NCBI GenBank assembly: GCA_001692895.1
Contig: KV748178.1
Location: forward strand, 3,458,536 to 3,522,535
DNA: 64,000 nt
Reading direction: 5' to 3'
Source: Cenococcum geophilum 1.58
Taxonomy: Eukaryota; Ascomycota; Dothideomycetes; Gloniales; Gloniaceae
Both the position numbers and the translations under genes were made by a program. The notes beneath the pieces were generated by a model. That model was not told the origin of the DNA and searched no databases. It worked only from the letters and a program-made list of their open reading frames with translations. Below, piece after piece: positions 5,701 to 47,800 of the stretch (the first letter of the stretch is position 1; each line of letters starts with the position of its first letter).

Positions 5701-5785
5701 AAACAGCAATCAATTACGACGTATTTTAGTGTAGCCAATCGCTTAATTGTGACTTCATAGGTGTAGATATATAATATTATTACCT

Positions 5786-6800
5786 GGCCGTCGAAAACGG
5801 ACTCTGCACCTGTACGTGGTGACGGCTACGAACCTGGGTCTTCGAAGTTCAGACCCAGAGCCAACGCAGAGACGTCGCACAGCGTGCGATACGACATGGT
5901 GGTGGTAGTTGCGAGTAGTGTGGGCGGTGGTGAAAAGTTTTCACATGGGATGGTGAGATCTCGAAAACCACCACTGTTGGTACCCCCTTACGATAGCAGC
6001 TACTACACTACTATTCTCCTATCAGAAGACACCTGTACGATCCAACATGGATGTACAGCATTCGATAGCATCCCCCGACCCCCAATAGAAAGCATCGACG
6101 ACCTCTCACATCGACGAACGAGCGAATGCGACCAAGCAACGAGCAAATATACGGCCCCTCCTAACCCCCAGGGCGATCGCCCGCGGAGCATGCGGTCACT
6201 CGCCATCAACTATTAAGTGCTACCTGGCAGCCTGGATTACAACCCATGGTTTTCCTTGTCTTCTTTCGACGGAGTGGTGACCCTTAGAAAGGGCCTAGCT
6301 AGGGCCTAGGCACAAAAGATACCCAAAGCACACAATATATCCCGCTCGCCTTAGTATTATGGTAGTTAATGGATGAATCCCCCTTACGCCTTCGATAGGC
6401 CCTAGGGGGGGGGGAGGCATGGCGTATATGGCAATGGTCAAACAAGAGATAGCATACAGGGGATGGCCAAGATATGGGAAACAACAGTACAGCAATCAAT
6501 TGGCAAGGCCTAGCTGGGACGTAGTGAACCCTAGCTGGGATAAGCTAGAGAAGGAAGCAGTGGTTCCTAAGGAGTTCGAACATCCAAGGAGGACAGGACG
6601 TAGTTGTAGGCCCGCAGGGCCGCCGCTACGGACAGACATGGCAAAACGGGGTTTTTCATCCTACTGAGGTGGCTCATAGGGTTTTTCCTCCCCCAACTGC
6701 AGGGTTTTCTTCATGTAAATTACAAGTTTTCCCCCCTGCGACGGAGTAGTCTGCGTGGGCCAGTAGGATCCGTATCAGACGTTAATCAAAGAGTTACTAC
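5786..6800 (+). mobile_element. SINE-like non-autonomous retroposon, copy 1 (~1,015 bp)
   Basis: GC-rich, lightly mutated block inside the Fot1 relic, flanked by the direct repeat TAATATTATTACCT (5772-5785 and 6801-6814). It starts GGCCGTCGAAAACGG and ends with a short tail GAGTTACTAC. A second, more mutated copy at 43829-44845 has the same ends and a different 13-14 bp duplication. Long variable target duplications and a short (TAC/TTA)n tail suggest LINE-mediated mobilisation. No convincing ORF: those present are short and lack ATG starts. Near its 5' end the arms CTGGGTCT and AGACCCAG (about 5831-5855) can pair. I do not recognise the family. Confidence 0.8.
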
Positions 6801-6925
6801 TAATATTATTACCTAATTTTAATTTTTAGTGCATTTTATATACAAATACTAAATATAACGATACCCTTGGTATTACGATACGGTCGGCTAAATAAGTCGT
6901 ATCGTTATAAGGGGGTTTGACTGTA

Positions 6926-7836
6926 ACTCTCTTAATATTAAAGCTATATTACTATATTCTATTCCTACGCGTTCTTACCACTAGTAATTACATTAATTAT
7001 CGTAATCACAAGGGCTGATTGTAATTACGATTAGTTAGATTATATAATAATCATAACTTATGTAACTAATTGTAAGGGATCTTTTGGCTGCATCGCCTAG
7101 GAGCTCTAAGGGGTAGCCAAGGCCTAGCCGAAGGCTAGGCTTAGCACCTCCTTATAAGCTCCTCGGGCTTGCAGCCCTTTCCCTCCTCATCGGTTCGTCT
7201 CCGTACGAGGCTATTGCCTACCCTTATTACCATATCGTCCTCTTCCATCGACTCTCCTTGTGACTCATGCTCGGCTTGCCTGCTCCCTACCGTACACCCT
7301 GGCAATATGCCTTACACTAATAGAATAGTTATATGCATCTCTGCAGCTCTGAAAGCCATTACGTATGGATATTCTAAAGTTAACAAGATTTTCTTGATAC
7401 AGGTACGGAGAGTGATTATAAATGCATGGTTGCTAAAATTTGATTATAAGACCATCCTAATGTAGAGTGGGTGAGGGAAGTGGGGGCGAATGCTGGTGCT
7501 TCCTTGGGTTTCCGTCGTAGAAGCTGAGTACAGGATGAGGTTGAGTTGGTGCCCAGAAATCATCCCAGCACATAACCACGTTAGATGCACATGTCGAAAC
7601 GGCTTTTCTTCAACACCTAACCCACATCAAAACATACTGTACAAAAACCTACATCCCACCAGTTAAAGACGCCATACAAACCCAATAACCGCGCAACCGA
7701 GGGATGAGAAAACATCTCCCGATTGCGTTGTACATACCATAGGAGGATGATGCAACAGTATCGCTAGAAGTAGATGGCGCACAGCGCCCGCGCAAGGAAC
7801 TACAACCGTCCCTGCTCTTTACATCTCTCTCTGCAT
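6926..7836. other. Intergenic, 3' side of SEC7
   Basis: AT-rich to about 7075, then normal-composition island DNA. It contains the hairpin at 7076-7185; otherwise no gene is supported. The short ORFs here have no homology that I recognise. The SEC7 3' UTR must lie in the right part. Confidence 0.6.
7076..7185. repeat. Large imperfect inverted repeat (foldback)
   Basis: Nested arms pair across a GAA loop at 7130-7132. The outer arms GGCTGCATCGCCTAGGAGCT (7086-7105) and AGCTCCTCGGGCTTGCAGCC (7157-7176) are complementary at 16 of 20 positions; the arms GGAGCTCTAAGG and CCTTATAAGCTCC extend inward, and the innermost stem is GGCCTAGCC/GGCTAGGCT. No coding. Could be a foldback/MITE end or a structured RNA; not identified. 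Confidence 0.75.
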
Positions 7837-10800
7837 CTATCTCCCCCTACTGCCCCTCCTCTGTCCCATCGCGCCCGCACCACTAAAACTCACCCTCGGG
7901 CTTCTCGCAATTGGCGTCATTAGCTGGACCTTCTCGGTGCCGAGCTTACACTCGAACACCCGCATTACTAGGGCTTGCACAGCTCTCTGCACATCCGGCG
8001 CCATTTCAGTTCCTAATAAACCGACAACAAGCGGCGCGAACACCTCCACATGTTTCTCGAACTCCTCTTGCGGGAATCCCGTGTAGCCATCCAGAACCGT
8101 GACAACCACCGGACGCCACGTCACGATATTGCGTTGCTGCGTTTCCTCGTCAAGTTCAATATACGAGGCGATAATGTCCTCGCATAACGGGACGAGTGCA
8201 GCTTCAGTCTCGGCGCGGTTAGCCGCACGTTCGGTGCTGGTGTCATGGTACATCCTGAAGAGGATGGAGACGTAGACTGAGGCGGAGCCGGACTCCTGCT
8301 TGAGCAGATTTGGCGGCTGCTTCATGAAGCCCTCCCGGAACAACCGCGTCCTGAGATCACGATCTGCATTGAAACGCTTGGCAAACTGGTAGCTCTTCTT
8401 TAGCACGGCCATCAGGCGTAGAAGCTCGCCCGAAGGGATTTTCTCGTATACCGAGTCGTTGGTGAAGAGTTCTTGCACTGTCTCGATCATGAGCAGTTGC
8501 AAGACGCATTTAGTGATGATTTGATTGAAGAAGCGACGACGCGCGGCTGTCACGACGACAGGTGCCTGTTGTAGGTCTTTATCTTCGGGACGATAGTCTT
8601 CTAGCTCGGCGGTCTGGCGCTTCGGTAGTGGTGAGGGCATTCGGTTTTCTGTCATACTTGATGTATCCGAGATTACGGCAGAAGTACGGCGCGGGGTGGG
8701 AAGGCCATTAATGCCCAGGGCATTTTCCGATGCTGCTTCTTCGATTTGAGTTTGTGTGAACGGAAGATCTGTGACGTGTGTTTCTGCAGTGGCTGTTTTC
8801 GGCCCTGGAGCGTTGTGGACGCTGTTGGCGGATGTGGATGAGCTAGGTGTATATGATGAGGAGGTGGCAGCGGAGAACAAGGCACTGGCTTCAGTGCGGT
8901 TGAAGAGCTCAACAAACGCATTGACAATCTTATGCCAATGCTCGGGCTGAAACTTCCGAACATTTTGAAGTATGAGTTGTTGTAAGCAGTTACTTCCAAT
9001 TCTAGCGAGAGTATCGTTTTCTTGGCAGATGCACAACGCCAGCAGATCCAAGAACCGGTCAAGCATGTATTCAAGGGATTCGAAGAAGTGCGTGAAGAGC
9101 TTAATCATGTTGCGGAGGGCTTGAATCATTGTGGTGGAGAGCCACACAGAGAGCTCTTCATGGTTGAGGACTTTCGTCATCTCGGACTTGGATTTTAGAA
9201 CCATGAAGATGGGGTAGAGAAGTTGGCGCCAGAGGATGTCCCAGAAATCCTGTGGGAAGTTACCGCCATAGGTAATCAGGGTCTCAAACAGATAGGTAAG
9301 CGCTCTTGATCTCACTTCGAGATCCTCGCCAGTCATCAGCACGTCGTGGAATGCGAATAATACCGGGAACCAGAACTGCTCTTCTTGGGTCTGTCTGCTA
9401 GGCTGTTTCGGTATGTTGGACCCCTGAGCAGAATCTTTGACAAAGCCAGCACGCGCGGACAAGGGGCACTCTGGCGTTCTGAGCATCTTGGGTACTGATG
9501 ACTTCAGCAACTCAATTGCTTGTAATGACTTCTTTTGAAATTTGAAGTTCTTTGAAAATTCCGTTAGGCAAACGATAAGATCGGCAAAAGCACCCTGTGA
9601 TATTACAACGCCGAATTTAGTGTTGTAAACCTGTGTAATGTTATCAAAAGCTAGGCTGACGATAGTTTCTGCTGGAAATTAGATACGAAGATCGTTCAAA
9701 TATTGCCGGAGCACATACCATATGGCTCTTTCGCAGCAACAGTAAATACGCCGAACATCGTCCTCCAGCCTGAGCGGATGTTTTCTCCTCGAGCTTGAAT
9801 CATTTGAATTAGACATCGAAGAACCATGTCTTTGACGTTAACAACAGTGGTATTGCTGATAATGTGCTCAAAGGGTCTGAGAAAGTCTTTCTGAAACTTG
9901 AAACCCGGCAGCTCTTCAATCTCCATGAATCGCATAGACAGCTGACGCAATGAGTTGAGGGCAAAGAAGACGACGTTAGTATTGGTATGGCATCCGACTT
10001 GATTAAAGTGCTCTCCAAGGACTTGCCAGATATTTGTCCATTCAAACCGGACACGCGTCATGTTGTATCCACTAATTTCAACAAGCTTCTGAAGACTGTA
10101 TGTGCGGGGAGAATCACTCTGTCCGGATGACTGGATCTCTTGCCAGCTTACTTGCGTCAATGCCTTGACGAAGTCAACAATTGCTTCTCCGGAAAGATTT
10201 GCTGTGTTCGTGAAGATGCGATCCACTCCCCGGATCATGTCCGTAGAGCTGGTTTCCTCGGCTACGTCAGCCTGGTAATGGAGGTTGCTGCTTTGTGAGG
10301 TTGGCCTGCGTCGACTCGGCACAGCAAGCGATTTCCGAGAAGCTGGCAGTCCCTTCGATTGAGTGTTAGCCTTGAGGACGTCTGGTACGGCTCTTTCGTC
10401 TACGCCGGTAGAAATAAGTTGGAAGCGATCGAGTTGCGATATGCAAGTCAGGATGTCTCGCCATGATTCTTTAAGCAAATTTCCTTCGTTATGTGCAACC
10501 TCAAGCAGGACTCTTAATGCCTCAACATTCTTCGCCTTCATCTCACTCAAGTTATACAGATTTGTAAACCTAGCAAGAGACGCAACAAATGCCTGCCGTG
10601 GGTTCTCAAGATCAAACAAACACGCAATTCGAATAGCCAGTTTGAGCCCTTCCATGCAAAGTTTGACCGTCTCGAGATTTTGCGTGTCTTGAGCCTGGCC
10701 TGAGAGTGCGGTAAGGAATGGCATCCATGTTATCTCAAACATGGGGCCTACATGCTTGAAGGAAGAAGCAGGAATAAATTTCGAGACAGGCATTTTCGAC

Positions 10801-13800
10801 GCAGCTCGTCTCTGAGCGCGTAATAGAGTCTTGTATAGCTGCTCAGTCTTGTTAGCCATCTCTTCCGATGCCTGGACGTATGCTTCTCGCTGTAGATCTC
10901 GTCCGACGGTTGCCAAAGCCTGGCCAATGTTGGCGGCCAATCCACCAGTCGGCTGCGGAAGCATGCCTAGATTCGCCGCGGTTTCTCGCTCGGTGTTGAG
11001 CACAATCTCGTTATGCGTAATCTCGTCAAAGATGCTGCGAAGATAATCATCAGGAAGATCAGCGCTATCGTTGATGCCCCGGTTGTTCTTAATAAAGTCC
11101 TCCGGTGTCATGCGCCGCTGTCCTTTGAGCTTCGCGCTGTGTTGATCAGTATTCAACATGATGACTGAATATGCTAGTACATAAGCGGTGTCGGCGTTCG
11201 CAAAAGCGTTAGGATTCCCAGTGATGTATCGTTCCGCAAATTTTAACATGAATCGATCGATCTTCTGTGCCTCTCCCGGAAGACGGAAGCTCTGAAGGAA
11301 GCGACGCAGAGCATCGACAAACCTTGTTTTCGTAAAGTCCATGAGATCCACGAAGGCGTGCATAATGGCGATATTTTCTGGTTCACCCTCGCCAAGGAAC
11401 TCTCCAAGCGATTTCTTGTCAATTGACTCGTTATCTAAAAAGAAAAGAGCGACATCCCCAGGAGACTCAGACTTGATGAAGCCGTCTTTCAGAAGAACCT
11501 TTAGACCTCGCTTGGGCTTGAAGTTAAATTGACGAACCGCATTTGTCAGGGCAGTCTTTCTCTGTTTCGCTTTCTCTAGCTGACTTGGATCATCCTCTGC
11601 AAGTGGCGTTGCTGTACCTGAATCCGTCGCTCCGACCTGTGGAGAGTCTGTCGCACCACGATTATCCATTGACTCACGAAGGTTATCGACAGAGATTCTC
11701 GATTCTGATTCGCGTAAATACGCAGTACTATCCGCGATTCCTTCTTGTGACCAATTAACAAGAGAGCGAAGGATCTCAACGAGAGCTTCCAAAGACTCCA
11801 GTTTCATGGCATAATCTGGCGGGTAGCCTTGGTCCGCGTCATGTGCCACATGCATCGACGCTGTGGATAGTGATGGTGGAAGCGTTCCTCGTGTATGCCA
11901 GTCCGAAAATTGGTTCGACTGTTTCGCATGTTGATCCTGGTAGGCTTGTTGTTGTATAAGGGTAATGGAGATAGGGGTGCTCGAAATCCTTGATAGATGT
12001 TCGACAATTCTCTGGTACATGTTGTCTAAAGCTGTCCGATCACAATCATAATTTAGATAAATCTCGACCAAGGCCCTGGGGTCTGCTGCCAATCTTCCAA
12101 GGACGGTCAGGATATACTGCTTCTGGAAGACTGCGGCTGTTCGTTTTTCCAGGATGGCGAGGTAGATTTCTTTTAAAAATACCTCGATCTCTTTTTTTAG
12201 CATAACACGAAGATATTTAAGCATTAGCCAAAATATTTCACAACTAACTTCGAACACTCGATGAACGGAGCTTGCGCCATTCCGACTCAAACTCAAACAC
12301 AGATATTGCTTGATGGCTTGAACAAAAGTTGTGGGTTCGTCGCTACTGCTGCTTCGTATTGTGGCATATGGAGAGACAAAGACGGTTATGTTATTATGGA
12401 GAATGGTGTGGATGATATGAAGAGACAGCAATTTTGACCTCATACCTTGAGACTTAACGTCAAGCGCATGTTCTACTGGAAGCGCCTTAGTACTCAGTCT
12501 GCACATGGCCCTGAACACAAGATAAGCGTCTCTGATGAATATCTCATCTTCCTCTTCCTCGTCCGTTCCTTCCCCATCGTGCTGAGGATTAGGTGACGCA
12601 TCCGGGCCTGACACTGTTCTGTGTGATGTCCGACCATTGACTCGAGTGACCAAAGTTGGAGCATTATCATGGATCCTGTCGTCGTTGAAGCTCATATTGT
12701 TTTCAAAGCTTTGGAGCGTGATTTTCGGTCCGGTGTGTTTATCCACGGGTTTATCACTAGGTTCGCCTAATCCTTGTTCTGAGTTCTCTTCCTCGAGGTC
12801 TCCGTTGCCTTCTCCGTTGGCTTGGGACCCATCAACGCCAGATGTACTACCCTCAACCTCGTCTCGATTGCTCTCCTCCGATCCTGGCTTTTCATTCACG
12901 AGAGAAGTGCGGGAAAGATTCATTCGTGACTCCTTGACCATAAGCCTCCCTTTGACCCGCTCGAAAACCGTCCCCACCATTTGGGTCAAAGCTCCCTGTG
13001 CAACTTGCTGGTTTGCACTGGATTTTGACAACAAGAAGATGTTATAGGTAAGTCGTACAGCCTTCAAAAGACCTGCTCCATGCACAACAATCTTATCATT
13101 CAAGATAGCTGCCAGCAGCGACTTTACTATCTGCAGTTGTACCTCCACTGGTGTAGCTTCTCCCTGAAAGCAGTCGCATATCGTGTCTATGGCCCGTTCG
13201 ATGAGAGGGGGTGCTTCAGCGCTTTCGCCTTGAGGTTCCGAAGGGACGGAGAAATAGGAGTAGCTGATGAGTTTGCCAATACAATCAAGGGCAGTGATTA
13301 CTATCGAAACAGTTTGAGCCTCTGAGGCGAGCTGGAGGGGTCCAAAAAGGACCTCGGGGTTGATGTGCGAGGGGTCACCCTCGCTTTTGATTGCGGTCAA
13401 TGCCTGCACAGTAGAGTCTCCAAGCTTCTTGTGCTTCCTCGCATCCTTTGAAGCAGCTATTGTTTCTAACGCTGTGACGACAAATACTAAGGAGCTCCGA
13501 GTGGAGGGTTTCGTGGCGGAGGTGGCAGCAGTGGATTGCGAGTCGGTCCGCGATCGAGTTGAGGTGTGCATTCGTTGTTCGAAGAACTCAGCAGTTCGAG
13601 GAGTGTCTTGTCCATTTAGGATATTAAGCTGTGGGGAAGAAGCCGTAGGTGTTGGAAGATCCGGTGTTTCCTGTGAAGTCGGCGACCCTTGCGCATCTGA
13701 GCCATGTTCATGTTCCGCAGTCTCCGCCTCTGTGCCTCCAGTGTTCTTCTCCTCATCTTCTGCAGCAGACGTATCTTCTGAGTGGCCATTCGGAGCCTTC

Positions 13801-13883
13801 TCCATGTCTTCCACCAGAGTGTCGTGGTCGGCCATTTCGTTATTCAGGGCGCTGTGTATACACTCGGACAGAGCTTCTTTCAT
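7837..13883 (-). CDS. sec7: Sec7-type Arf guanine nucleotide exchange factor (BIG/Sec7p)
   Basis: Large guanine nucleotide exchange factor that loads GTP on Arf1 at the trans-Golgi, driving vesicle formation. Two exons on the minus strand, 13883-9719 and 9668-7837, total 1,998 residues, close to yeast Sec7p. The 50-nt intron (9718-9669) starts GTATGT and has branch-like CTAAT; a second AG three bases upstream is a possible NAGNAG alternative. Domains: acidic low-complexity N-terminus (1-125), DCB (~130-330), HUS with the NYDCD box (611-615), SEC7 domain (~772-960) with the catalytic glutamic finger E871 in FRLPGEAQKIDRF and YVLAYSVIMLNTDQH, then HDS repeats to the C-terminus. The start ATG at 13883 is upstream of a second candidate (M17, MADHD). 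Divergent from the PDH E2 gene. Identification is secure; the exact start is less so. Confidence 0.97.
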
Positions 13884-14388
13884 GCTTGGCGGGGAACTTC
13901 AGAGATGCAGCATCTCCATGTATGAAAGTTGAATTAGGTGAGTCCACGCCGGCGTACAGATAGGCGTGAGATCAAGCTTCGAGAAATAATTGAAGGGTAT
14001 TAGCTGAATGTTAGCGGTTAGGAAATGTATACGTGTGGAGTATTTCGATTATTCTCAGCCTCAAACTCCTTGCTGGGATGATACAGCCACTCCCAAAAGA
14101 GTCGCGGCGTTTAGTGACCCCGGCGTGTGGCTTTATTGCCGGCCAAGAAAACGAGAATGCCCGAAACCCGAACGGGTCCCCGTGCAGAGAGCTACTCGAC
14201 ACTTTTATTCAACCAAGCAAGCTGTTGGGCGCAGAGCGACGACAATAATCCCCAATCGCCCTCCTCGCAATCTCTCCATTTTAGGGGATTCTCGGTCGTT
14301 GTAGACCTCTCATCTCTCTCTCCGCTCGTGGTCGCTTCTCTTCTCACCTTCTACCCCGAGTTTCCGCCCTCAGCGGCATCCTGTCACA
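13884..14388. promoter_or_regulatory. Divergent intergenic region of sec7 and PDH E2
   Basis: 505 bases between the two divergent start codons must hold both promoters and 5' UTRs. The last ~100 bases before 14389 are pyrimidine-rich (runs of CTCTCT/TTCTC), common in fungal 5' leaders. The E2 start context is CACAATG. No specific activator site claimed. Confidence 0.6.
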
Positions 14389-19197: not shown

Positions 19198-19208
19198 AAG
19201 GGATTATA
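19198..19208. repeat. LINE target-site duplication, left copy
   Basis: AAGGGATTATA, repeated exactly at 24697-24707, bracketing the LINE. It adjoins the 3' tail (ATG)n on the plus strand, i.e. (CAT)n in element sense. Confidence 0.93.
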
Positions 19209-19299
19209 ATGATGATGATGATGTTTATTCCGCCCGGAGGCACTAAGCCTAAAGGGCACTAGTACTATATTACATATTTTCGCTCCTTTTAGTCTCGCC

Positions 19300-22200
19300 A
19301 TATTCTCGTATAAGCCCGTACATATGCCTTACTTAGTACTCCCTAGTGTTACTAATACCTTATTCTGCGAGATCTCGTAGGTGGTTAGTAGCAGGTAGTC
19401 TTGGGGGGCTGTTCCTCTAAGTATTTATTATCCTATCTTCGGCAATTGAAGCGAGATCTGCTGGTGGCATGAGGGTACGTGGTGTGGGTTGGTCGAAGTG
19501 TGAGGGGGGGGGGGGGGTTTAACTGTGGTGGGCGGGTTATTAATCCGGTTCTGCCTTAAGTCATCCGGTGGCTATTACATATTTTACTGTTATTCGGACC
19601 ACGTCTACGTTTAGTGTCCACTGTCTAGGGTTAGATAGCGCCTTGCCCCTAAGGTAGAAGGATAAGCTGCCTCGTCTTATATCTGTTTGCTACAGCATTT
19701 ATTCTTAATATACTGTCTATTTTATATACCTAAAGAGGAAATATTTTACTATTTCTCTTGCTTATCCGTAGTTATATTAATCTAATTCTACCACTCTAAT
19801 CTAGTGTAGATATCTATTAAGTTATATTATTCCCGTCTATAGTTAGGCTAATACGTTTACCTCTTTTTACTTAAGAGAGTTATATAGCCTACGGGTATGT
19901 TTACCTAGTAGCGCTATATTTATTTTTCTTAAGTACCTTCCTACTCCTTCCGGTAGTATTTTTCTACCCTACTATCTTGCTCTTGCTGTATTAATTATTA
20001 TAGCCTTAGCCTAGTGTTATTGTCCTTGTAGTAGGCGTCCTTGCGTAGTGGCCCGCCGTGCTGCTTCTTTTGCCTTCTTGCCTAGTGCGAACTCCCCTTA
20101 TGTTGGGACCTATGCTATAAGGACGTAGTTACTTCTTTACCTTAGTATGTGGGTTATATTATAGATCTATACAATACTCATTTAGCTAGACTAGTGCTTA
20201 GGTTAGCTAAGCGCTAGTAATGCTGCCTAATTACTAGTAAATATAGTAATCTGTCTCCCCTATAGATCTAATAGTAAGCGTCTTATCGCCAATAATATTG
20301 CTATTAGTTTAGCTATGTATAGGTTCTGTTCTACTCTTAGTCCTAGTATAATTAAGTATATAACCGCTTTCCTATTTAGTGTATTACTAAGGGTGTTATA
20401 GACAACACCTCCTATCCCTACTATGCCTCTCCTCCCGGACGAGCTTATTGCGATCTATATACCTTAAACGGAGTTAGCGGCTTTAGTTGCCCTATCTTTA
20501 TCTAGGTTAATGCTTATAGGTAGTTGGTCCTCCTATAGTGGTACTATATAGGGTTAAATAACCTCTATCTTATCTGTTGGTGTATATTAGTGTGTATAGG
20601 CTATCTTTTATAGTAGGGACGTAAACCTTTAGAGCACCTTTATGCGGAGCCTTAAAAGCGGGTTTGTTTTATATAACGTATAGAGGTTAACCTATAGCTT
20701 AGTGGCCTTCTTTAAATGCCGCTCGCGTACTAACCGTATACTTACTTCGGCTTCCCTAATAACTATAGCTACTATATGGAAAGTTCCTATAATTGCCTGC
20801 GCTCCAATTCTTTGCACCCTATTTATTATAGCTATAGCGGAACCCCCGTAGATGTATATCCAGATATTTAAGGCGTAGTCTACTACTAGCGCTACTATTG
20901 CCCTAAATAGCTATCTTGCAGTTAAGGGGGATACTATCTGGAGTCTCTTTAGTACTATAGCTGCGATAAGGCCCTTAATGGCTACTTTTGCAATATATTA
21001 CTTATACCGAAGCTCCGCATCTATAACTACCCCTAAAATCTTAGCTGTATATCCTAGTATAACTGTTTTTCCCTTAATTATAAACGGGGTAGTATTAGTC
21101 CGCTCTATATTTCTTATAAAGTGCACTAATATAGTCTTTTCTCCTTTAAACGTTGCGCCGCTTTATTTCTCCTAGTCTATTACTCTATTAATAATAGCCT
21201 AAATACCTTTATAGTTTGCTGCTACTAATAGTCCTATAACCTATACATTATAGTTATCTATAAACGCTATTAAGCCTCTATTTATATTAAGCCGGTACTA
21301 GACTAGGTTAGTGTTAAAAAAGAGGAATAGTATTAGTAAGAGCGGCGATCCTTATAATAGTCCTACTTATAGTAACTATTACTAGTTAAAGGTATAGCCG
21401 TTAACTAAGATAGTTGCTATATAATTAGAGTAGAATATATTAATCCACCGCACTAGTACTGGTGGTATACCTCTTGCTATAAGCCTCTATAATAGCCTCT
21501 CTTTATATACTCCGTTATATACCCCTTTTATATTAAAGCTAATAAGGCTAAGTACCTTCCTAGACCTCTATGCGTTATATATATATTCTTACAGTAATAG
21601 CAGCGCCTGTTTAGTGGAGCGCTTTTTCCTCGCCTTAAAGTAATTTATAGGCAGTAGTCTAAAGGTTTCTATTGCGTGCGATATTCTCTTAGCGACTATA
21701 AACTCTAGTACCTTACCTAACATAAAAAGCAGAGAGATAGGCCTCCATACCCTTGCCTTTATATAGTCTCCTTTATTTAGCTTCTTAAGTAGTATAATCT
21801 TAGCATTTCTCCATTAGCTAGAAAGGTTACCCTTATTTAGTGAGGTTTAAAAGAGGAGCAGGACCCTATCTTTTATTACTAGCCATATCTGCCTCTATAC
21901 TATCGCTAGTAGGCCGTCGTCCCCTAGCGCTTTCTATGGCTTTGCTATAAACATCTTCCGTTCCACCTCTTCTATTATAAGACGCGGCATTAATATTAGC
22001 GTTTATTAGGGCCGTGGGCCCTTATTCTCTATTTCTACTAGTAGCGGGGGAAAGAATGTAGTTAATAGCTCCACTGCTTGCTTATCTTTTTCTTCTATAG
22101 TAGATCTATTTATTCTTACTAGCGGTAGTATCTTATTAAACGCTAAGTTGCCGCTTAGGTTAAGGTATTTTACTACTTACTAAATATTTACGTTATCGGC

Positions 22201-23600
22201 CAGGAAGTTGTTCTAGTATATCCTTTTCTGTTTCTATATTGCATTATAGTATTCCTTTAAGGCCTCCTTTACTTATTACTTTAGTTTTAGTAATATCTAA
22301 CCTACTTAGCGTTAATTCTTTACCCAGTTTCTCTAGTAAGTGTATACCTAGCAGAGCTTTATAAGGTCTATTGTTTACTACCTTTTTATATATAGTAACG
22401 GTTTAGCTTTTGGAGTTAATACGTATACTACCTCTAGTACTATATCTATAAGCCGGTCTATTTGCTACTATACTCTACTACCTATTAGGATTATATAGAA
22501 GGCGGTAGCAATCCTATTCCTAATTTTATTCTATAGTATATTTTTAAAAAGTATTCTCTATTCTATAGCGCGTTTAGGGACCGCAATATTAAATATTATC
22601 TTAATTACCCTATAATTAGATCCGTGTTCTGTCCTATATACTATATACTTTACTATTATAGATGCTAGCTTGTCTAATACTAGGATTAGGTTAATCATTA
22701 TCTTATAGTTGCCATTTTGCTATGTTTTTATACCCCTAGGCAGCAGGCTATGTAGGGAGTAATCTCCTATAAGGTTAATAATTGGGTTAGCTTCTCCCTG
22801 TCTCGCTAGCAAGATGTCATTTCCTCCCTATAGCTGGTTGTGCCGATTAAAGTCTCCTATAAGTATTATATCGGTTTATATCCCTATCTTATTCTATATT
22901 TCCTAGATTAATTAATATAGTTTACTAGTTATATCCTATAGTACCTCTATATTCTTTCCCTTAATATATACTAATACCACCAGTATTAATTGGTTGGGAA
23001 GGCACAATACTACTATAGTAAGATCTGCTAATTATACTAGCACCTATTTGGCCTTAATATCTTTTCAAATCCATAACATACTCTATACTGCCCACCTCTC
23101 TTTACGCTAGACTATAGGTATTACCTTAGTCTAATTTAAGTATCCTATGGGGACAGTTATAACTATATTATTTGTTTTCTATATATACGGCTCTAATATT
23201 ACTAATACTTTAAAGTCTTTTAGTTATTTATTATTTATTAGGCTCTACTATACTATACTCTGTTTTTAAATATTTAGTTAAAGTACCTAAAGTGTCTTAT
23301 ATATAGTGGGTAGGATAAAGCACTTAGCAATTTTTACTAAATAATTTATATAGTCCTCTGTATAGTATACATTTTAGGATCTATCTTTAGCAGTTATTAT
23401 AATAATATCCTTCTTAAGCGCATCTAGTATATACTTACGGTCTTATGTATATAAAAGCTTTATATCCTAGTGTCTAATACTAGTAGTATTATGTTAGGCC
23501 GCTTTTAGGTTTATAGGTTCTAACGTAGGCTAATTCCCCTATAATGTAAAAGTATTAGTCCTATAGTAACCGTGCTGCCTTACTACTTTTAGTAATGTAT
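19300..23600 (-). pseudogene. LINE ORF2 relic (EN-RT-RNase H)
   Basis: Endonuclease, reverse transcriptase and RNase H blocks occur in the correct order on the minus strand. The RT catalytic motif reads FIDN where the family has FVDD, a G-to-A change typical of RIP. In RNase H, blocks like GIVGIGGVVYN and ITIFTSNQAALLALS are still legible. Many TAA/TAG codons interrupt it; limits approximate. Confidence 0.8.
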
Positions 23601-24628
23601 ACTACCATTAAACTATATACCTTTCCTATGTCTTTTCTACTAAGCCACCCTATCTAGGCTATATATATATTGTTCTCTTTTCCTAGTACCTCTACTGCTT
23701 TGTCTTAAATCTTTCCTTTCTGGTTAAGAACTGCTGTTTGGTTAGCGTTGTTAATTTTTACTAGGTAAAGCTGGTCTTGTAGTACCTAAATACTAAGTGC
23801 TAAGGTCTTCTAGGCCGCTTCTTTTATACGTTAAAGCTTAGTATTATTCCTATAAGTTATCCTAATGCGTGCGGGGTTCCTGGGGTCTTTAATTACTACT
23901 ACATAGCGCCAGCTCTTGTGGCCTTCTGTTATGCGTATACTACTTTTAATTGCTTGCCTAATTACCCCTAGTTATACTTTATTCTTATTTTCCTCTTTAA
24001 CTCTAGATATGTTAACTATACAGTATAGCGTATTAGTAATAGTTAATAGTATGGTATTCCTTGACGGGAAGGACGTTAGGTTACTTGGTTAACTGCTTGG
24101 CGGCGTACGGGCAATATCCGCGTACGATGGAGCCGCGCTCAGTGGTGCTTGAATGTTTGATAATTGGGTCTGGATTACCTTTATCTTCTCCGTAACCTTA
24201 GCTCTAAGCGCGTCAATCTGCTCTGTAAACATTTTAGTAATAACTTTAATTTAGTTCGCTTGTGCCTCTTTCTGCTGCTCTAATACCCCTAGTAGTGACG
24301 TAACTAGGTTGGTTAGCACCTTAATTTGTATGTTTGATGTTGTATTTGTCCTCTTAGTTGTTAATTGGTTTGCCGTGGTGGCTGTTATTGCCGGCTGCTC
24401 TGTTCTCTTTTTAGCTATTATGCGGTTTCTTGTTGACCCTATTTGATCCTTAGGGCGTAGTTTTTTCCCCGTGCGCTTCGGTCATGGTGTACTAGGGGCT
24501 ACTGCTGCCACATGAACCGTATCTTCTGTATTGCTCTCGTAACTATTGTTTTTAAGGGCCTTGGTTGTCTTGGCGCGTTCCCGACGCGATTGACGCGTCG
24601 AGCCTTCTTCCACCTCTGCCGTTTCCAT
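23600..24628 (-). pseudogene. LINE ORF1 relic
   Basis: Begins METAEVEEGSTRQSRRERAK at 24628 (minus), basic and charged as expected for the RNA-binding ORF1 of Tad-type LINEs. The first stop arises at a CGA-to-TGA change, a RIP product; further downstream, stops accumulate. The 3' limit is approximate. Confidence 0.65.
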
Positions 24629-24696
24629 CTTCCCTTTCTCAACTTGGGTACTGCGTGCTAGGGGGTGTTATTTAAAGATAAGGTTCAAGTCCGTTC

Positions 24697-24707
24697 AAGG
24701 GATTATA
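24697..24707. repeat. LINE target-site duplication, right copy
   Basis: AAGGGATTATA, identical to 19198-19208; marks the 5' end of the LINE. Confidence 0.93.
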
Positions 24708-35887: not shown

Positions 35888-36092
35888 TGTTGGACTCACA
35901 AGGGGATATCACGTAGCTACGGTTCGTAGATAGTATAATAATTGTTCTTTTTTATATATTCTTCTAAGAAAGGGGAAGGGTAAGGAACTTAAGGTTCCTT
36001 ACCACGCTAGTGCCGCGGCAACACGTGACGGCAACTTGCCTTACGTGACGGCAATTTGCCGCATATGGCGGCAATTTGCCCTATTCCCAATA
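35888..36092 (-). repeat. Copia 3' LTR
   Basis: 205 bp; contains a 10-bp hairpin (GGTAAGGAAC / GTTCCTTACC) and three tandem ~22-bp units built on ACGTGACGGCAATTTGCC. Confidence 0.92.
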
Positions 36093-39000: not shown

Positions 39001-41680
39001 CATTAAGATATATAACATTAATAATAATACAGAAGTTAAAGTTGTAGTTATCTTTAAGGGTGAACTTAAATTGGCTAGGGGACTTCTGGTTTATTTAGTA
39101 GTAATAGCAGTACTTTATAAGATGCTTAATTGCCTTAACCTTAACTTTATAACCTGCTCGTTAAAGAACCCTAAGTAGTTAGTAAACGGATAGGTGGCTA
39201 AAACGACGGTATAGTTAACGTAGCTCTAACTTGGTTAAGTAACTCTAAGTAACGCTCCTTTCTGGTTATTGGAGGAGCAACTAAGGGTAACCCCACTTGC
39301 GTACAACGGGCACCCAATTGTCTCCCTAAATAAGCATGTTCTTAAGGTTATTAAGCTTAACGCCTAATTTATTTATATCTTGGATATAGAATAGGAATGG
39401 GGTGTTTGTGGGAATAATGTAGAAGGTAATATATCCTAATGGGGTTTGGACCTTAATTATGCTAAGAGAGATTATAGTACCCTTACTAAAGCAAATTGTA
39501 TATTAGCCTGCCATTAATTAGTTAATTTAAATAGAGCTATTAAGCTGCTAAAGAGCTTAAACTTAAGGTTCTCCTACTATAGATACTCCTACGGCTCTAG
39601 TATCTGGCATAATACTATAGAAGACGTTCACCGAGTATCTGTTATTAAAGGAGAACGCGAAACTTTCCTTTAGCTTATTAAAGATATCTAACTTTATAAC
39701 AGAATGGAACGTAGATTAGTTATTAAGGATAGCGACGGTTTGTATGCCATTTACCTTACCATACTTAGTAAAGTATTAGTTAGGAGAGTAGTCCTTAATA
39801 TCCATATCTATAAGGAGCTATTTGGTCTTATTAACCTCACCCTTAAGGTCTTTTACGCCTTTATATTAAACTAGGAAGCTTTAAAAGTAGGCCGTAGTAA
39901 CCTTATAATTTCTAACGTTTCTTATACTCTAACGGAACTTATTATATGCCTCTTTTCGCTTATTAAGGGAGTGTCTAGTTAACTAGCAATTTGGCTTCTT
40001 ACAAATATAGCACTTCTTTTAGCGATTACTTTAAAATAAACCTCTATAAGGACCTCCATAATTACCTTATAGTCGACATTAATTATACCCTTTACCGTAT
40101 TCCCTACTACGGCCGCTATATATTTAATTAGTCTAGTTATAATTATGTTAGTCGGAAACGCTTATTTAGGTAGGGCTTTCGGTATAGAGCTATTGAGATT
40201 CTTATATTCGTATTATAGTACCTATAGCGGAGCGTAGCTCGGTATATACTCCTTTAAACGTGTCCGTAGGTTTATATAGCGCTAAGTTACACTTAGGAAC
40301 GCCATGGCATGCTAAGATAACCTAGTCCCTTAGACTGTTCTTGTTTTAGTAGGTTTTAGTAAAGCTATATTAGATTTTCTGGAGTTTATTAAAGAGTAGT
40401 TAAAGACACTCTAGGCGAGTTATTGTTAGGTTAGAAGCGATAACTCTCTAGAATATAGTCTCCCGCTATTTAGATATATAGAGTTAGCAGTTCTTATTAG
40501 TTTTAAAGTAGGCTTTAGTAAGCTAAAGTATTACATTAAAGCTATAGTTTTTACCTGCGATATAGTCGTAATAAAACGTTACTGTCCGTCCCTTTAATAT
40601 AATAGAGAAAGCATAATAGAACTAGTGGCGTTAAATTTTAACCTTATTACAGCAGTTATAAAAGACCTATAGTTTTACTCCGAGTATATTATACAATTCT
40701 CCTCTAAACTTCTTTTCTTTGTCTAAATATACCTTTATTAAATTCGTAACTTCTTAAAATAAAGGCTTATTGGTTAGCTAAAATAGAGGAGTTAAAGGTA
40801 GTAGAGGTAGAGGAAGAGCACCTCTAGGTAAAAGAGTACCTTTAGGTGGGAGAGTAGCGTTCTAGGGGTTTCGTTCCGAATTAAAGTTGCCTTCTAAAGA
40901 ATATAGGTTAGTTTTGGGTTTCCGTAGTTAATGTATAATCTTAGCTTCCGTCTATACTGGTTTTTTTATACTAGTAAGAACGGCGTAAATATTACTAGTA
41001 ATTAGGTTACTGTCCTTAGTAACATACACCCTATTCCTTTAAAGGGAGTCTTAAAAATCCTAAATAATATTAATATTACTAAGTGCCTAAGTGTCGGCGG
41101 TCTATCCTATAAAATCCTCCCTAAAGTATTCCCATAACTATAAATTGGTGTAGTAGCTATCTTAGTAAAATAGAATATGGTGTAGGAGAAAGCCGTTAAC
41201 TTGTTTTGCGGTATAGGTTATTACATTAAAGGTAAATACGTCCCAATCTTTATTAATAAGTTTCGCGTATATAGCTACCCCTAGTGGTAAGGAGTCTCTC
41301 CAGTTATTTAGAGTGGCTATAGTTATATCTTCGGAGGAATGGAATATTAGTGGTATAGGGATTGTCGTTTAGTACGCGTTTATGACATATATTTGCGATT
41401 ATAGGGCTTAGGACTAGTTCTAGCCTTAAATCGCGAAGACTTATAAAGCGTATTATTCTATATAATGGACGCAAGAATCTATAATCTGGGGAAGGCTTAG
41501 GACTAGTTCTGGCCTTTAGATCCTTAGATTCGTGGAAGAGTTCTATTTAAGGTTTAGGACCAGTTCTAACCTTAAAAGATAGCTTCCTTTAGCACAAGTA
41601 GCACTAGTATAGTGGCTCGTCTCTTCTTAGTGAAAACCTAGCTGTTCTGTAGTATAACTATAAAGTTAACCACTAATTAG

Positions 41681-41885
41681 TGTTGGACTCATAAGGGGAT
41701 ATTACGTAGCTACGGTTCGTAGATAGTATAATAATTGTTCTTTTTTATATATTCTTCCAAGAAAGGGGAAGGGTAAGGAACTTAAGGTTCCTTACCACGC
41801 TAGTGCCGCGGCAACACGTGACGGCAACTTGCCTCACGTGACGGCAATTTGCCGCATATGGCGGCAATTTGCCCTATTCCCAACA
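41681..41885 (-). repeat. Copia 5' LTR
   Basis: 205 bp, nearly identical to 35888-36092, with the same hairpin and tandem units. Confidence 0.92.
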
Positions 41886-41890
41886 GTAGC

Positions 41891-44800
41891 TATACTTTAT
41901 CTCCCTCCTTAAGATTTAGTCCCTTAGATCTCTTAGCATTATAGTACTTTTTTATTCTTTCTTATACTTTCTTTACTAATTCTATAAGGTCTATATAAAG
42001 ATTTATTAANNTCTTTATNCTTTCTTTAGCTNTNCTACTNNTTTTNTTNGCTTNCNNTAGTAATAANNATATTCTTAGCTTATATCNATAATTNGCCTTA
42101 AATAGTAATATGCCTATTTCTTCTTAAGGTGTTGTATTATATATAAACTATATAACTAGTAATAGCGATACCTAATTATTCTATACATAATTAATATAAT
42201 GCCTTAGATACTGCTCTAGCGTCTAATTTAATCTTTTTATTTAACCGTCTGTCTGCGGATAATATGCGGTAAAAGTTGCTGCTCTAACTCCATGCTTTGC
42301 TAAGAATACCTCTTAAAATACTACTATAAATCTTAGATCTCTGTCCGATATAATCTTACTTAATACTCTATATCTTATAAACACTTCTTTAATATAGATT
42401 CTAGTAATATCTTCTATTAATATTTCTTCTATATATGCTATAAAGTATCTCCACTTTATAAGCTTGTCTACTATTACTAAGATTATATTATAATCTCGTC
42501 CAGTAATAGAATCTCTTAACTTTGGTAACTTAATAATAAAGTCCCATAATATAACCTCCTATAGTCTCTTTAGTATTTTAATAGGTTATAGCCCTCTATA
42601 TAGCTTATACCTTATTAGTTTATTCCTTTAGCAATCTAGATACTCTTTTATTACTTTTCTTATAATATTTTAGATTCTATTAATAATATACTCTTCCTAA
42701 AGTCTTAACACTAAGCCCGTGGCTCCATTATATCCTTAAGTTAATCCCTTATAGAAGTCCTCTATAAACTACTCTGCTATACTTTTTAGGATATACTTTG
42801 CTTCTTAGTACTTATATATATCCGTCTATAAATCTTCTAGTTATGCTTTTAGAATTCTTTATACCTAAAAGCTTTCTAGTGTCTTATAAACTCTTTCTAG
42901 TTCGTCGTCTTCTTAAGTTACTATAATCTTTAGATAATTATACCTAATTAATCCATCTATATCCTTTTATAGTAAAGCCCCTAATAGCTTTTTATTATTT
43001 TATAGTTTAGCTTTTTAACTTAGAGCGTCTGCTTATATATTATCTGTACCCTTAATATACTAAATCTTAAAATAGTATTCTATAAGCATCTCCGCCCATC
43101 TAACCTATCTCTAGTTAAGTTCCTTTATTATTAGGAATCCTATTAGGTTTTTATAATCCATCTTAACTATAAATAGTTTCTCCGTGCCTTATAAGAATAC
43201 TCTTTATTTCTTTAGTACTATAACTATACCTAACAACTCCTTATTATAGATGTTATAGTTTAACTCTAGTGGTATTATCTTCCAACTATAGTATACTACT
43301 AGGTGCTATCTATTTTAATATTTTTATATAAAGCATACCCCTAGTATAAAGTCTAATATATCCGTCTCTATAACCGTCTCTAGTCCTAGTTAATAGATCT
43401 TAAAAACTGGCTTCTGGGTAAATAATTCTTTAACCTTTTTAAATAACTCTTACTATTCCTTTCTCTATACCCATAGTTCTTCTTTCTTTATTAATCGCGT
43501 AAATAGTTTAATATTCTTTAACTATTACGCTATAAACCTTCTGCAGTAATTATAAAACCCTAGGAATAACCTTAGCTATATTACATTCTCTAATTCTTAC
43601 TAATTTACTATAGCCTTAATCTTCTTTAGATCTATACTAAGTTGGCCTAGTTTAATAATAAATCTAATAAAATTAGTCTTCTTTATAAAGAACTCGCATT
43701 TCTTAATTGCTACTAGTATCTATTCTTCTTATAGTCTCTTTAAGACCTATTTAACGTGTTCCCCATGTTCTTCCTTAGTTATTAAGTAGATAATAATGTT
43801 GTTAAGGTATACCATAATAAATTTATCTGGCCGTTGAAAACGGACTCTGCACCTGTACGTGGTGACGGCTACGAACCTAGGTCTTTAAAGTTCAGACTTA
43901 GAGCCAACGCAGAGACGTTATACAGCGTGCAATAGGACCTGGTGGTCGTGGTTGTGAGCGTTGTAGGCGGTGGTAAAAATTTTTCAGATGGTGAGATCTT
44001 AAAAACTACTACTGTGGCCCTCTACAATTTAGCTATGTTATTCTCCTATCAAGGCACCTATATAATCCAACGTGGATATACGGCATTTAATAGCATCCCT
44101 TGACCCCTAATAGAAAGCATTAACGACCTCTCATATTAACAAACGAGCGATCGCGAACGAATAAGTAGACGAATGAGCAAATATACGGCCCCTTCTAACC
44201 CCTAGGGCGATCGCCCGCGGAGCATGCAGTTACTCGCCGTTTTTTCTACCAAATACTACCTAGCAGCCTGGATTGCGACCCACGGTTTTCCCTGTCTTCT
44301 TTTAACGGAGTAGTAACCCTTAGAAAGGGCCTAGCTGGGGCCTAGGCATAAAAGATACCTAAATACAACATAATATCCCGCTCGCTTATTAGTATTACGG
44401 TGGTTAGAACGGATAAATCCCCCTTACGCCTTTAATAGGCCCTAGGGGGGGGAAGGCATGGCGTATATAGCAATGGTTAGACAAGAAATAGTATACAGGG
44501 GATGGCTAAGATATGGGAAACAGTAGTACGGCAATTAATTGGCAAGGCCTAGCTGGGACATAGTGAACCCTAGCTAGGGTAAGCTAGAGAAGGAAGTAGT
44601 GGTTCCTAAGGAGTTTAAATATCTAAGGAGGATAGGATGTAGCCGTAGACCCGTAGGGCCGCCGCTACGGACGGACATGGCAAATTGGGGTTTTTTATCC
44701 TACTGAGGTGGCTTATAGGGTTTTTCCTCCCCCCCAGTAGCAAGGGTTTTTTCCTATCAATATTACTTTTCCCTTGTGTACGGAGTAGTCTGTGTGGGGC

Positions 44801-47800
44801 TAGATAGCATCCGTATTAGACGTTAATTAAAGAATTATTATTATTAATAAATTTATCTAAGTATTCTCCTAATATATTATTAATACGCTTCTAGAACGTT
44901 ACTAGTGCGTTTATAAGCCTAAATTGTATAACTAATAGTTTATATAGTCCTTTCTTTAACCTAAAGGCTGCCTTCTATTCGTCGCCTTCCTTAATTCTAA
45001 TCTAATAGTACGCCTATCTCAGACCTATCTTTATAAAAATTTGTACGTTGCCTATCCAATCTTAGATTTCGCTAATTAAGGGTAAAGGATATCTATTCTT
45101 TCTAGTAATACTATTTAACTATCTATAGTCGATATATAGCCTTAGTTTGCTATTCTTCTTTAGTATAAATAGTACTGGATAACCCGCTAATAACTGCGAT
45201 GGTTTAATATATCCCTTTTATAAGTTTTTTTAGATAAACTCTTTAAGTACTCTACCCTTTTCTTTAGTAAGCTTATAGGTTAGAAAGAACCTTAGACTTA
45301 TTCCTAGTTCTAACTCTATCTTATAGTCCTATACTATATAATCTAATAGCTTTTTATTTTTTAGTGACTATAGTTTCTTACCATACTTATAGTATCTCTT
45401 TAGTACATAACTTAAGCCTCACTCAGTCTCTTCGTATATCGCTCCGACTTAGTACTATACTAACTTAGTTTATTATCGCATTTTACGGCGTTAAGTATCT
45501 CTAATATTGACCTAACCTATAATCTAATTAATCTTTAGATTATATTCCTATAACTAAGGTATCCCTAATACTACCTCATTCTTTCCTAACAGTAGGATAT
45601 CGAAAGACATCTTAATTTGTCTTCCTTTAATAGTTATCTAAATAGGTTCTGTTTTAAGGTTAATAATCCCTCCTCTATAGGCTATTAGATCTCCTAAAAT
45701 TATAACTAATAGGTAAGATTACTCCTTCTATCTATAAGGTAGTCCCTTTTTTTTTTAACTACTACTAGTAAAATATAGTTTCTTATTACTCTACTATCTA
45801 TTAGCGCTTTAAACTGCTAATCTTGCCACTTAACTTATAAATTTAGGTATTGTCCTTAAATTCCTTTAAGGGTCTAAGGCTCTATTACTAGCTCCCTCTA
45901 GTTTTATAGGCCTCTACTTTTCCTAACTATTAGCTGCTTAATCCTTATATACTTAGCTTATCCTTTAGCTAATACCTAGTTCGCTTTTTATCTTTAATAT
46001 ACTATAGACACGTATTTTCTAGGCATTTCTACTACTATTATCCGTCTAAGCATTCTTCTATAAGGAATCTTCCTAGTTAAAGTATTAAATCCCCTTCCTC
46101 TTAGACTTTTGCTAGATGCTAGCTGTGTATATACTTAGTATTCCTATACTATTATTTATCTGGCGCCTAATATATCCTTATAGGGTATTTCCAATTCTTC
46201 TCTTTTGGATTTTTATGTATTTTATATATATTATCTACGCATATAATCCATAATAGCGTATAGTATACTAGGTGCTTTAGGTTAACTCTTAACTTATCTT
46301 TATCTTTAAGTTTAAACCTCTATTATATTAATCTAAACGTTATAACTTTATTCGCAGGTACTAAAATACGTCTTTTACTTCTCTAGTCCTCTAATTATTC
46401 CTCTAGATACTTTAACATTATAATTAAGGCTCCTTTAATATAAGTTATAGCCTTCTCTATAATTAAGTGGTTTTAGATAACTTTTTTATCTAACCATATA
46501 TAGAAATCTTTCCACTTATTATTATATCGCTGCCTATACCACTTTTAGTATAGCTATTAGAGTATATACGGCTTATCTATAAGGAAGTATCTTCTTATTA
46601 CTGCGTTATAACAGCCTTTTATATATCATTCTTCGAACCTAGTTAGAATCCCTAGATCCTCTTTATCTTCTAGTTTAGTAAGCCACTTAGCTTTTAGTGT
46701 GCCTACTCTAGGCCTATTAGTAATTCTTTATACTAGTACTCTGTCCCTTATACGTCCTAATATACTAAATCTCTTATCTAGTTTCTGTTTTTGCTATACA
46801 ATAATTCTTTATCTAAATTCTTCTATGGTTTCTTTTAGTTTGCATCTTACAGATTAATCCTTAAAGTCCTCTTACTTCTTAATCTTAGTATTAACTTTTT
46901 AATCTTTAGGCCGAACACTGCGTTCTCTTAGTAAGTCTTCTAGGTCTATATATCTATCTCCTAGCCTAACTGCTGTTTATATTATAGATTCTCTAATTTA
47001 TAAAGAAGTCTCTCGCTTCTTATTTATAGGTGTCCTTATTTATACTTTAAATCTTTAGTCCCTTAAATTCTTTAATCCTAAGCTTACTTCTATCTTAAGC
47101 TTAGCTCCTACCTTAGTCTAACTAGGCTTACTTAGTGTTCTTATCTCGTCTTAAGAGTCTTATACCTTTAGGAAACTTCGTCTTAAGCTTATTTATATAT
47201 TACTAAACTAAGCTATTACTCTACTCTATCGGTTATCGTCCGTTATAAGTCCTTAAGCTTGCCTTATCTCGTCTTAAAAATCTTAGTCATCTTACATCTC
47301 GTCTTAAGAATCTTAAGCTTTTGGCCTTTTGCCTTTATTAAGTGCCGAAGTAGCTCGCTATCCTACTTCTCTTATATCTTATAAAGCGATAGACATTATA
47401 TCTAGTAGGGTCTTAATCCCTACTAATGTTTCCTATTCTGTAATAGAATCATCCTCTACCTCTAGTATAATATCTTTAATGGCTACGTATTCCTAGTAAA
47501 CCGCTTTTATTACCTCATCGTCATGGAATATTTCGCCTACGTTAAATTTATTATCCTTAATGTCCGATTTGCGAACTAGTTCGTTAGTTCCTTAATATTT
47601 TAATAAACTTAGCTCCTATAGCTAATAGCTTGCGCTATACTTAGCGTCCTTATAAATTTAGTATGCGTTATTATAACAAAACGTAAAACTTTTAATTAAA
47701 CATTCTTTTGTTCCTTATAGCATATTATTATCCCTCTATACGTATATATCGTCTACTAGTCTCGTTTCTTTTACTATATAGTAACTCTAACTACTTCTAC

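Follow-up and report, generated by a model that had tools for sequence, protein, structure and literature searches.

Introduction

Retroposons that encode no protein and begin with a ribozyme of the hepatitis delta virus (HDV) type are already known from insects and trypanosomatids, in which the origin of the ribozyme is a long interspersed nuclear element (LINE). In the R2/R1 hybrids of Drosophila, which are short internally deleted derivatives of LINEs (SIDEs), an HDV-like ribozyme precedes the 3′ part of another LINE, and 14-bp duplications accompany the insertions (PMC3414825). The NARTc, RIME, and SIDER elements of trypanosomatids are short non-autonomous retroposons with the HDV-like Pr77 ribozyme, which doubles as a promoter, and NARTc and RIME are shortened forms of the LINEs L1Tc and ingi (PMC4035085). 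The ribozymes of R2 itself vary widely in sequence (PMC3774820). Fungal HDV variants comprise 230 representatives from 26 species, and constructs of two of them cleaved; their gene associations are widely variable, and the main text of the report contains none of the words “transpos-”, “repeat”, “SINE”, or “retro-” (PMC5640933). Here, we describe an element of about 1 kb that occurs twice in a stretch of 64,000 nucleotides from the ascomycete Cenococcum geophilum 1.58 (assembly GCA_001692895.1, contig KV748178.1, positions 3,458,536 to 3,522,535 of the forward strand), hereafter referred to as the window. The element is probably a non-autonomous, non-coding retroposon resembling a short interspersed nuclear element (SINE), which would be trimmed by a self-cleaving ribozyme and copied by the machinery of a LINE.

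Among known elements, the R2/R1 hybrid SIDE of Drosophila comes nearest. It is likewise non-coding with 14-bp duplications, and in it, as proposed for the Cenococcum element, a 5′ HDV-like ribozyme is combined with the 3′ end of another LINE whose enzymes it uses. By their published description, the hybrid SIDEs reside in 28S rDNA and carry the ribozyme of the R2 LINE (PMC3414825), whereas the Cenococcum copies are dispersed over AT-rich sites and no LINE bearing the ribozyme was found in a scan of two LINE 5′ ends. The element also resembles NARTc, RIME, and SIDER in being a short non-autonomous retroposon headed by an HDV-like ribozyme, but the ribozyme of NARTc and RIME is that of their parent LINEs (PMC4035085), whereas the LINE matched here lacks one. 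Among fungal sequences, WEIRD/MINE of Magnaporthe offers a comparable case of a non-coding RNA of about 1.1 kb copied by a LINE with duplications of 10–20 bp; WEIRD itself is 1113 nt long and is described only as a fusion to MGL or Mg-SINE (PMC2104539). The comparison with WEIRD is by description. Mg-SINE, another fungal non-autonomous element, is shorter than the present one. Its 3′ end resembles that of its LINE, MGL, and the sections of the report concerned with it mention no ribozyme (PMC2104539). No ribozyme-headed fungal SINE was present among the matches listed in the open-access literature, a search that did not extend to Repbase or subscription journals.

Copies and insertion sites

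The two copies in the window, their target-site duplications, and an empty site are as follows.

5786..6800, + strand: full-length copy 1 (1015 bp) of the retroposon, with ends as in the other full-length copies examined
5772..5785, + strand: left target-site duplication of copy 1 (TAATATTATTACCT), perfect 14-bp direct repeat
6801..6814, + strand: right target-site duplication of copy 1 (TAATATTATTACCT), perfect 14-bp direct repeat
43829..44844, + strand: copy 2 of the retroposon, 1016 bp, 82% identity with copy 1
43815..43828, + strand: left target-site duplication of copy 2 (TAATAAATTTATCT), perfect 14-bp direct repeat
44845..44858, + strand: right target-site duplication of copy 2 (TAATAAATTTATCT), perfect 14-bp direct repeat
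~60910..60923, + strand: empty site for copy 2, in a paralogous repeat with the target once and no insert

A first-pass annotation of the window, made from the letters alone, had placed the second copy at 43829-44845 with direct repeats of 13–14 bp; copy 2 ends one base earlier and its repeat, like that of copy 1, is 14 bp long, while the limits given for copy 1 (5786-6800) stand. The repeat hosting copy 2 has a paralogue at 60601-61365, with 88% identity over 765 columns across the joined flanks. Because this paralogue contains the target once and without the insert, copy 2 is an insertion with target duplication. Indices of the type produced by repeat-induced point mutation (RIP), calculated outside the gene-rich parts of the window, were 1.40–1.79 for TA/AT and 0.27–0.84 for (CA+TG)/(AC+GT), and are compatible with a filamentous fungus undergoing RIP.

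The element had been taken for a two-copy family. In the 177.19-Mb assembly (162 contigs), however, there are 534 occurrences of a 25-base core from its 5′ end with at most two mismatches (275 forward and 259 reverse), against none of a reversed control. Of 20 cores sampled from 100 exact ones listed, 18 are followed by the element’s 3′ end at a distance of about 1 kb. Copy 1 as a query gave 41 matches, 40 of which were near full length (best 40 of 850 candidates scored). The hits fetched with flanks, together with copy 2 of the window, form a full-length set of 41 copies, all of which have direct repeats of 9–21 bp at their ends: 14 bp in 17 copies, 15 bp in 11, and at least 14 bp in 38. The duplications are free of mismatches in 38 of the 41, and they have T as the first base in 39 and A as the second base in 33. 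In each copy, the best repeat located at most a few bases from an end was taken, so that the three shortest repeats (9, 11, and 12 bp) may be due to chance. Read by eye, 37 of the 41 copies start at base 1, 29 of them exactly and eight ambiguously, the sole cause of ambiguity being one or three bases common to target and element; three others have 1–3 extra bases and one lacks 3 bases. The short (TAC/TTA)n tails reported earlier were seen again, as (TAC)n, (TTA)n, or related tails.

Whole-element similarity had determined the ranking of the first sample; a second was therefore ranked by the 3′ 121 bases alone, and 38 of its 40 hits were examined. The 5′ end is reached in 32 of them, namely 11 from the first search (one without the first 3 bases), L079–L083, and 16 of 20 further copies fetched. 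An internal piece of a larger autonomous element, against which the first-pass annotation had advised a check, is ruled out for the copies seen by the uniform ends, the tail, and the variable length of the duplications.

Individual copies depart from this pattern in several ways. Two copies stand head to tail at L017:361-2382, and the 14 bp between them also flank the pair, as if the second copy had inserted at the duplication of the first. The copy L079 is 99% identical to copy 1 and lacks 184 internal bases (409-592), representing a young internally deleted form. The copy L084 ends in a long A run instead of TAC/TTA triplets, and its 5′ part is unmatched. No convincing direct repeat was found at the ends of L048, which lacks the 5′ end.

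A ribozyme-like fold at the 5′ end

Ribozymes of the HDV class have a P1 helix of about 7 bp that starts at the cut, a P2 helix, a P3 helix of 3 bp, and a P4 helix, arranged as a nested double pseudoknot, and the additional P1.1 pair of HDV itself is CC/GG. Bases 1-86 of the element fit this double pseudoknot with all of these helices, and the predicted cut lies immediately before base 1. P1 is formed by bases 1-7 (GGCCGUC) and 36-42 (GACGGCU), P2 by 17-22 and 81-86, and P3 by 23-25 and 33-35, and the P4 hairpin is followed by the joining segment GCCAAC. A P1.1 is possible between the bases GU in L3 and the AC directly after P1. The fold is located in the window at two positions.

5786..5871, + strand: HDV-like ribozyme fold of copy 1; two Rfam models aligned end to end, descriptor match with P1.1, predicted cut before 5786
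43829..43914, + strand: HDV-like ribozyme fold of copy 2; descriptor match

A search of 121 bases against Rfam in permissive mode (E up to 10) returned three families, and the top two by E-value are of the HDV type: RF02682 (E 0.92) and RF01787 (E 2.8), both aligned over the whole model from base 5786. A descriptor of the fold has five starts on both strands of the window, two of which are the starts of the two copies; the other three are all AT-rich. When the 5′ 110 bases were dinucleotide-shuffled 3000 times, no shuffle satisfied the descriptor; 20 shuffled windows, scanned on one strand each, gave 22 descriptor starts, all without P1.1.

The fungal variant described previously likewise represents an HDV-class ribozyme in a fungal genome; in its published description, the pair at the cut is C-G, P4 contains a loop E, and P2 and P3 are separated by an additional base (PMC5640933), whereas the first pair in the element is G-U. 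No loop E was seen by eye in P4 of the element, and the extra P2/P3 base is ambiguous here.

A 3′ end in common with a resident LINE

The other end of the element resembles a LINE of the same genome, and the following features are relevant in the window.

6541..6799, + strand: 3′ region homologous to the 3′ untranslated region of the L065/L093 LINE, 61% over 268 columns, E 9e-9 in 24 kb
6743..6794, + strand: 3′ hairpin of copy 1, common with the LINE
44782..44835, + strand: 3′ hairpin of copy 2

The comparison with the LINEs of the genome that had been suggested earlier showed that the last ~260 bases of the element resemble one of twelve LINE 3′ regions at an E-value below 1e-3. This LINE (C101:246.9-252.8 kb) is resident in the genome, and Pfam assigns its open pieces to endonuclease (PF14529, PF03372) and reverse transcriptase (PF00078) domains. 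Six of seven other copies of its 3′ end are 81–83% identical over the last 57 bases (best E 2.5e-9), and the seventh is 62% identical over 268 columns. The matched 3′ end is the LINE’s own, because several copies continue upstream through a piece of the reverse transcriptase. A 45-base piece of this 3′ end occurs 886 times in the genome with at most three mismatches, and a control occurs once. A second LINE (C101:33.4-39.7 kb) has the same endonuclease and reverse transcriptase Pfam matches; blastn at E up to 0.01 detected no similarity between its three loci and the element, although the 3′ end looks related by eye. A 33-base match at L094 (E 0.19) and a 45-base match at L093 (E 1.4) were set aside as chance similarities.

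The ends of the element and the matching LINE can be folded into a common two-stage hairpin, which is the minimum-energy fold of the copy L009, copy 2 of the window, and the LINE copy L093; the second LINE folds similarly. Pairing was assessed in an alignment (A2) of 46 distinct ends from 78 matches of a regular expression, so that it covers the ends which the expression recognizes; in the inner helix, the three rows from the second LINE are out of register. In the outer stem, U-A is replaced by C-G in five LINE ends, and in the inner stem, C-G is replaced by G-C or G-U in 12 ends, between subfamilies of the element. Of all cells, 95.7% are paired compared with 23–54% when the partners are slid, and two-sided changes occur in 18 cells compared with 5.1 in shuffles; the pairing percentage and the covariation score exceed the shuffles as well. 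Both partners have AT-rich triplet tails, (TTA)n in the LINEs and (TAC)n, (TTA)n, or related repeats in the element. For five LINE copies, the fetched DNA includes both ends; these copies are 5′-truncated to 291–565 bp, and their flanking repeats of 12–22 bp, two of which have one mismatch, start with TA or TT as in the retroposon.

With many dispersed copies, duplications of the LINE type, and no coding capacity, the element shows the traits of a SINE, and its 3′ end in common with a LINE is that of the stringent type.

Search for the ribozyme in the LINEs

If the element were a SIDE of an autonomous LINE that carries the ribozyme, both ends would stem from one parent, as in NARTc, RIME, and the R2 SIDEs, for which such an origin is described (PMC4035085; PMC3414825). 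The matching LINE, however, starts elsewhere: among the best 40 of 725 scored matches to its 5′ region, the 39 others begin at query positions 116–136, and 36 of these at 132–136, near L097:2761-2765. The ranking favors copies that reach the LINE 5′ end, and hence these matches fix the boundary and not the frequency with which it is reached. At the 5′ ends of the two fetched LINEs, no ribozyme could be fitted even with relaxed rules for P1. No descriptor match with P1.1 was found on either strand of 55 LINE loci (296 kb), among which a LINE 5′ end is present only in L097 and L098, so that other LINE families are hardly covered; the element had no blastn match in the first 30 of the LINE loci at E up to 1. 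Judging from these sequences, the matching LINE is not the source of the ribozyme, and derivation of the whole element from one LINE is unlikely, though of the alternatives it fares best. A donor LINE may exist in an unsampled family.

Separately, the first ~127 bases of the second LINE (L053), at L098:2621-2747, recur with two sharp boundaries in 39 other places (best 40 of 1642 candidates), perhaps as a shared or mobile 5′ module.

Covariation and substitution rates of the 5′ end

The 5′ alignment (A1) was derived from 100 ends by dropping identical rows and nine rows with a displaced start, which left 77, and three of the nine (L151, L156, and L159) were restored with corrected starts to give 80 rows. 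Since the remaining displaced-start rows were left out, the pair counts lean to exact starts. A subfamily B was encountered via the copy L124; among 38 5′ ends fetched for it, GGUCCU is the start of 30, the start of five lies one base later, and the other three belong to another type. In subfamily B (23 of the 80 ends), GAGGCCU replaces GACGGCU and the pair at P1 position 5 is C-G instead of G-C. This double transversion is beyond what RIP can produce and is probably one event inherited by 23 rows. P4 is rebuilt as CUGCUG-GUC-UUCG-GAC-U-CAGCAG in the best-paired members. Over the 80 ends and 21 pairs, 94.0% of the cells pair, compared with 28–51% when the partners are slid by 1–3 columns; two-sided changes occur in 46 cells compared with 22.2 in shuffles, and the covariation score is above that of all 500 shuffles. 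The first P1 pair is G-U in 77 of the 80 ends and A-U in three. Within P1.1, the pair 28-43 is U-A in all 80 ends, and the pair 27-44 is G-C in 53, A-U in four, and G-U in one. The J4/2 cytosine at column 81, which we take from the alignment to the Rfam models to be the catalytic base, is present in at least 90% of the rows.

Excluding L079, transversions amount to 0.44 per 100 in bases 1-45, 0.10 in 46-90, and 5.6 in 91-135. In the middle of the element, bases 361-405 and 586-630 (window 6146-6190 and 6371-6415) are without any transversion in 45 aligned copies and are possibly functional parts.

Several observations weigh against the ribozyme and its partnership with the LINE. The Rfam scores are below the gathering thresholds (14.6 versus 44 bits for RF02682 and 12.6 versus 37 bits for RF01787), one member of subfamily B scores 10.4 bits, and in a search with the whole element, RF02682 has an E-value of 7.9 and a hepatitis C stem-loop family scores slightly higher. 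The descriptor was written after the fold of copy 1 had been seen, and two of its three other matches in the window, on the minus strand, also satisfy P1.1; its strict rules for P4 and P2 accept 20 of 46 copies, and most of the misses show, by eye, RIP-type changes in P4 or P2. Calculated without pseudoknots, the minimum-energy fold of copy 1 differs from the HDV fold and does not surpass shuffles (z -1.2). Position 3 of P1 in subfamily B is a U-C mismatch or a bulge (23 of 80 ends), the P1.1 pair 27-44 is broken in 22 of 80 ends, and one P4 pair is broken in 28 of 75. The ends that start one base late (L142, L153, L158, L161, and L163, of the 38 fetched for subfamily B) and L017, which lacks three bases, blur the exact start. 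As for both covariation analyses, the cells count sequences and not events, and the numbers of pairs with two-sided changes (four at the 5′ end and three at the 3′ end) do not exceed those in shuffles (365/500 and 266/500, respectively). The 3′ homology between element and LINE is 61% overall, the single-sequence folds of the hairpin have z from -0.7 to -2.1, and one of five (L015) prefers another fold. Finally, two of the 20 sampled cores (L171 and L181) have no element 3′ end, and the shared ends expected by the first-pass annotation, which held with duplications in all 41 full-length copies, fail in six of the 38 3′-anchored copies that show no 5′ end (L048, L084, L112, L119, L127, and L128).

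The low Rfam scores, the additional P1.1 matches in the window, and the broken pairs in many copies would suit an ordinary SINE-like retroposon with an internal promoter in its 5′ part, in which the HDV-like fold is coincidental or a functionless relic. Against such an element, the fold begins exactly at base 1, was satisfied by none of the 3000 shuffles, and keeps its pairing through the double transversion in P1 and the rebuilding of P4. The fold also occupies 90 nearly transversion-free bases that adjoin a fast stretch, although bases 361-405 and 586-630 are as quiet. Moreover, no relative of tRNA, 5S, or 7SL RNA was detected in the window at the Rfam gathering thresholds or in copy 1 at E up to 10. 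With ARAGORN likewise detecting no tRNA, a SINE derived from these RNAs was rejected. The ordinary SINE is accordingly quite improbable, more so than the SIDE.

Coding capacity and captured RNA

An ATG frame of 79–123 codons from base 111 is present in six of 11 copies listed. In 44 aligned copies, 163 of 213 indel runs break this frame and the ATG is kept in 13, in agreement with the earlier statement that the element has no credible open reading frame. The longest frame of the element has no Pfam match. Transversions are somewhat commoner at third positions (157 versus 102 and 107), an excess judged insufficient, and a protein-coding element was ruled out by the frame-breaking indels together with the absence of a Pfam match.

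A non-coding sequence of this length could also be a cellular RNA captured by a LINE, as proposed for WEIRD, which is similar in length and lacks coding capacity. In the published description, WEIRD is known only as a fusion to MGL or Mg-SINE (PMC2104539), whereas the present element exists in hundreds of copies, and those examined have their own LINE-like 3′ end and tail; its subfamilies have diverged and yet kept both ends. Such a capture is therefore very improbable. A DNA transposon, a miniature inverted-repeat transposable element, or a solo long terminal repeat would likewise be short and non-coding with direct repeats at the flanks, but has practically no standing against duplications of variable length (9–21 bp), two unlike ends, a repeat tail varying in length and type, and a LINE-like 3′ end.

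Proposed mode of propagation

The preferred explanation remains a ribozyme-trimmed retroposon copied by LINE machinery. A transcript running through a copy would fold, and the ribozyme at bases 1-86 would cut before base 1. Cutting would give every RNA one exact start wherever transcription began, and no start site at base 1 would be needed. The released RNA would comprise the ribozyme, a middle of about 650 bases, and the LINE-type tail, and a LINE protein, presumably that of the matched LINE, may recognize its 3′ hairpin and short AT-rich repeat. The protein would then nick an AT-rich site and reverse-transcribe the RNA there, leaving duplications of mostly 14–15 bp, and RIP-like mutation would afterwards decay the copies.

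The first-pass annotation had suggested that the element may be a SINE-like family without coding capacity that is moved by the resident Tad LINEs. A family of this kind, with a resident LINE as its probable mover, agrees with the uniform ends, the duplications, the empty site, and a 3′ end homologous to that of a LINE which has endonuclease and reverse transcriptase domains and a similar kind of target site; the hundreds of copies, the ribozyme fold at the 5′ end, and the common 3′ hairpin had escaped it.

Other features of the window

A RIP-degraded LINE of another family lies on the minus strand at about 19500-24700 (limits estimated), with an endonuclease match at 22606-22986 and 86% identity with L062 over 21110-24478. 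By Pfam, the genes at 7840-29270 encode a Sec7/BIG-type exchange factor, a 2-oxoacid dehydrogenase acyltransferase, a protein kinase, CENP-L, and an Hsp70-type protein.

Implications for fungal retroposons

Relative to the ribozyme-headed retroposons of insects and trypanosomatids, the novelty lies in the fungal host, the hundreds of dispersed copies, and a LINE that matches the 3′ end and lacks the ribozyme. The element offers a concrete carrier for HDV-like ribozymes in fungi, the role of which was left open in the report that described them (PMC5640933). Its common, covarying 3′ hairpin is a likely RNA signal for a fungal LINE protein, and the element lends itself as a natural test of whether a SINE-like element with nothing more than a ribozyme can do without a start site of its own. 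The combination of a ribozyme-like head and a LINE-like tail suggests a way for a gene-less parasite to keep an exact start and borrow the copying machinery. Fungi may even hold a general class of promoterless retroposons in which a ribozyme that does not come from the partner LINE replaces the promoter-defined 5′ end; this generalization is tentative and somewhat doubtful, and if it were true, much of the unexplained scatter of fungal HDV-like ribozymes would represent the heads of such elements.

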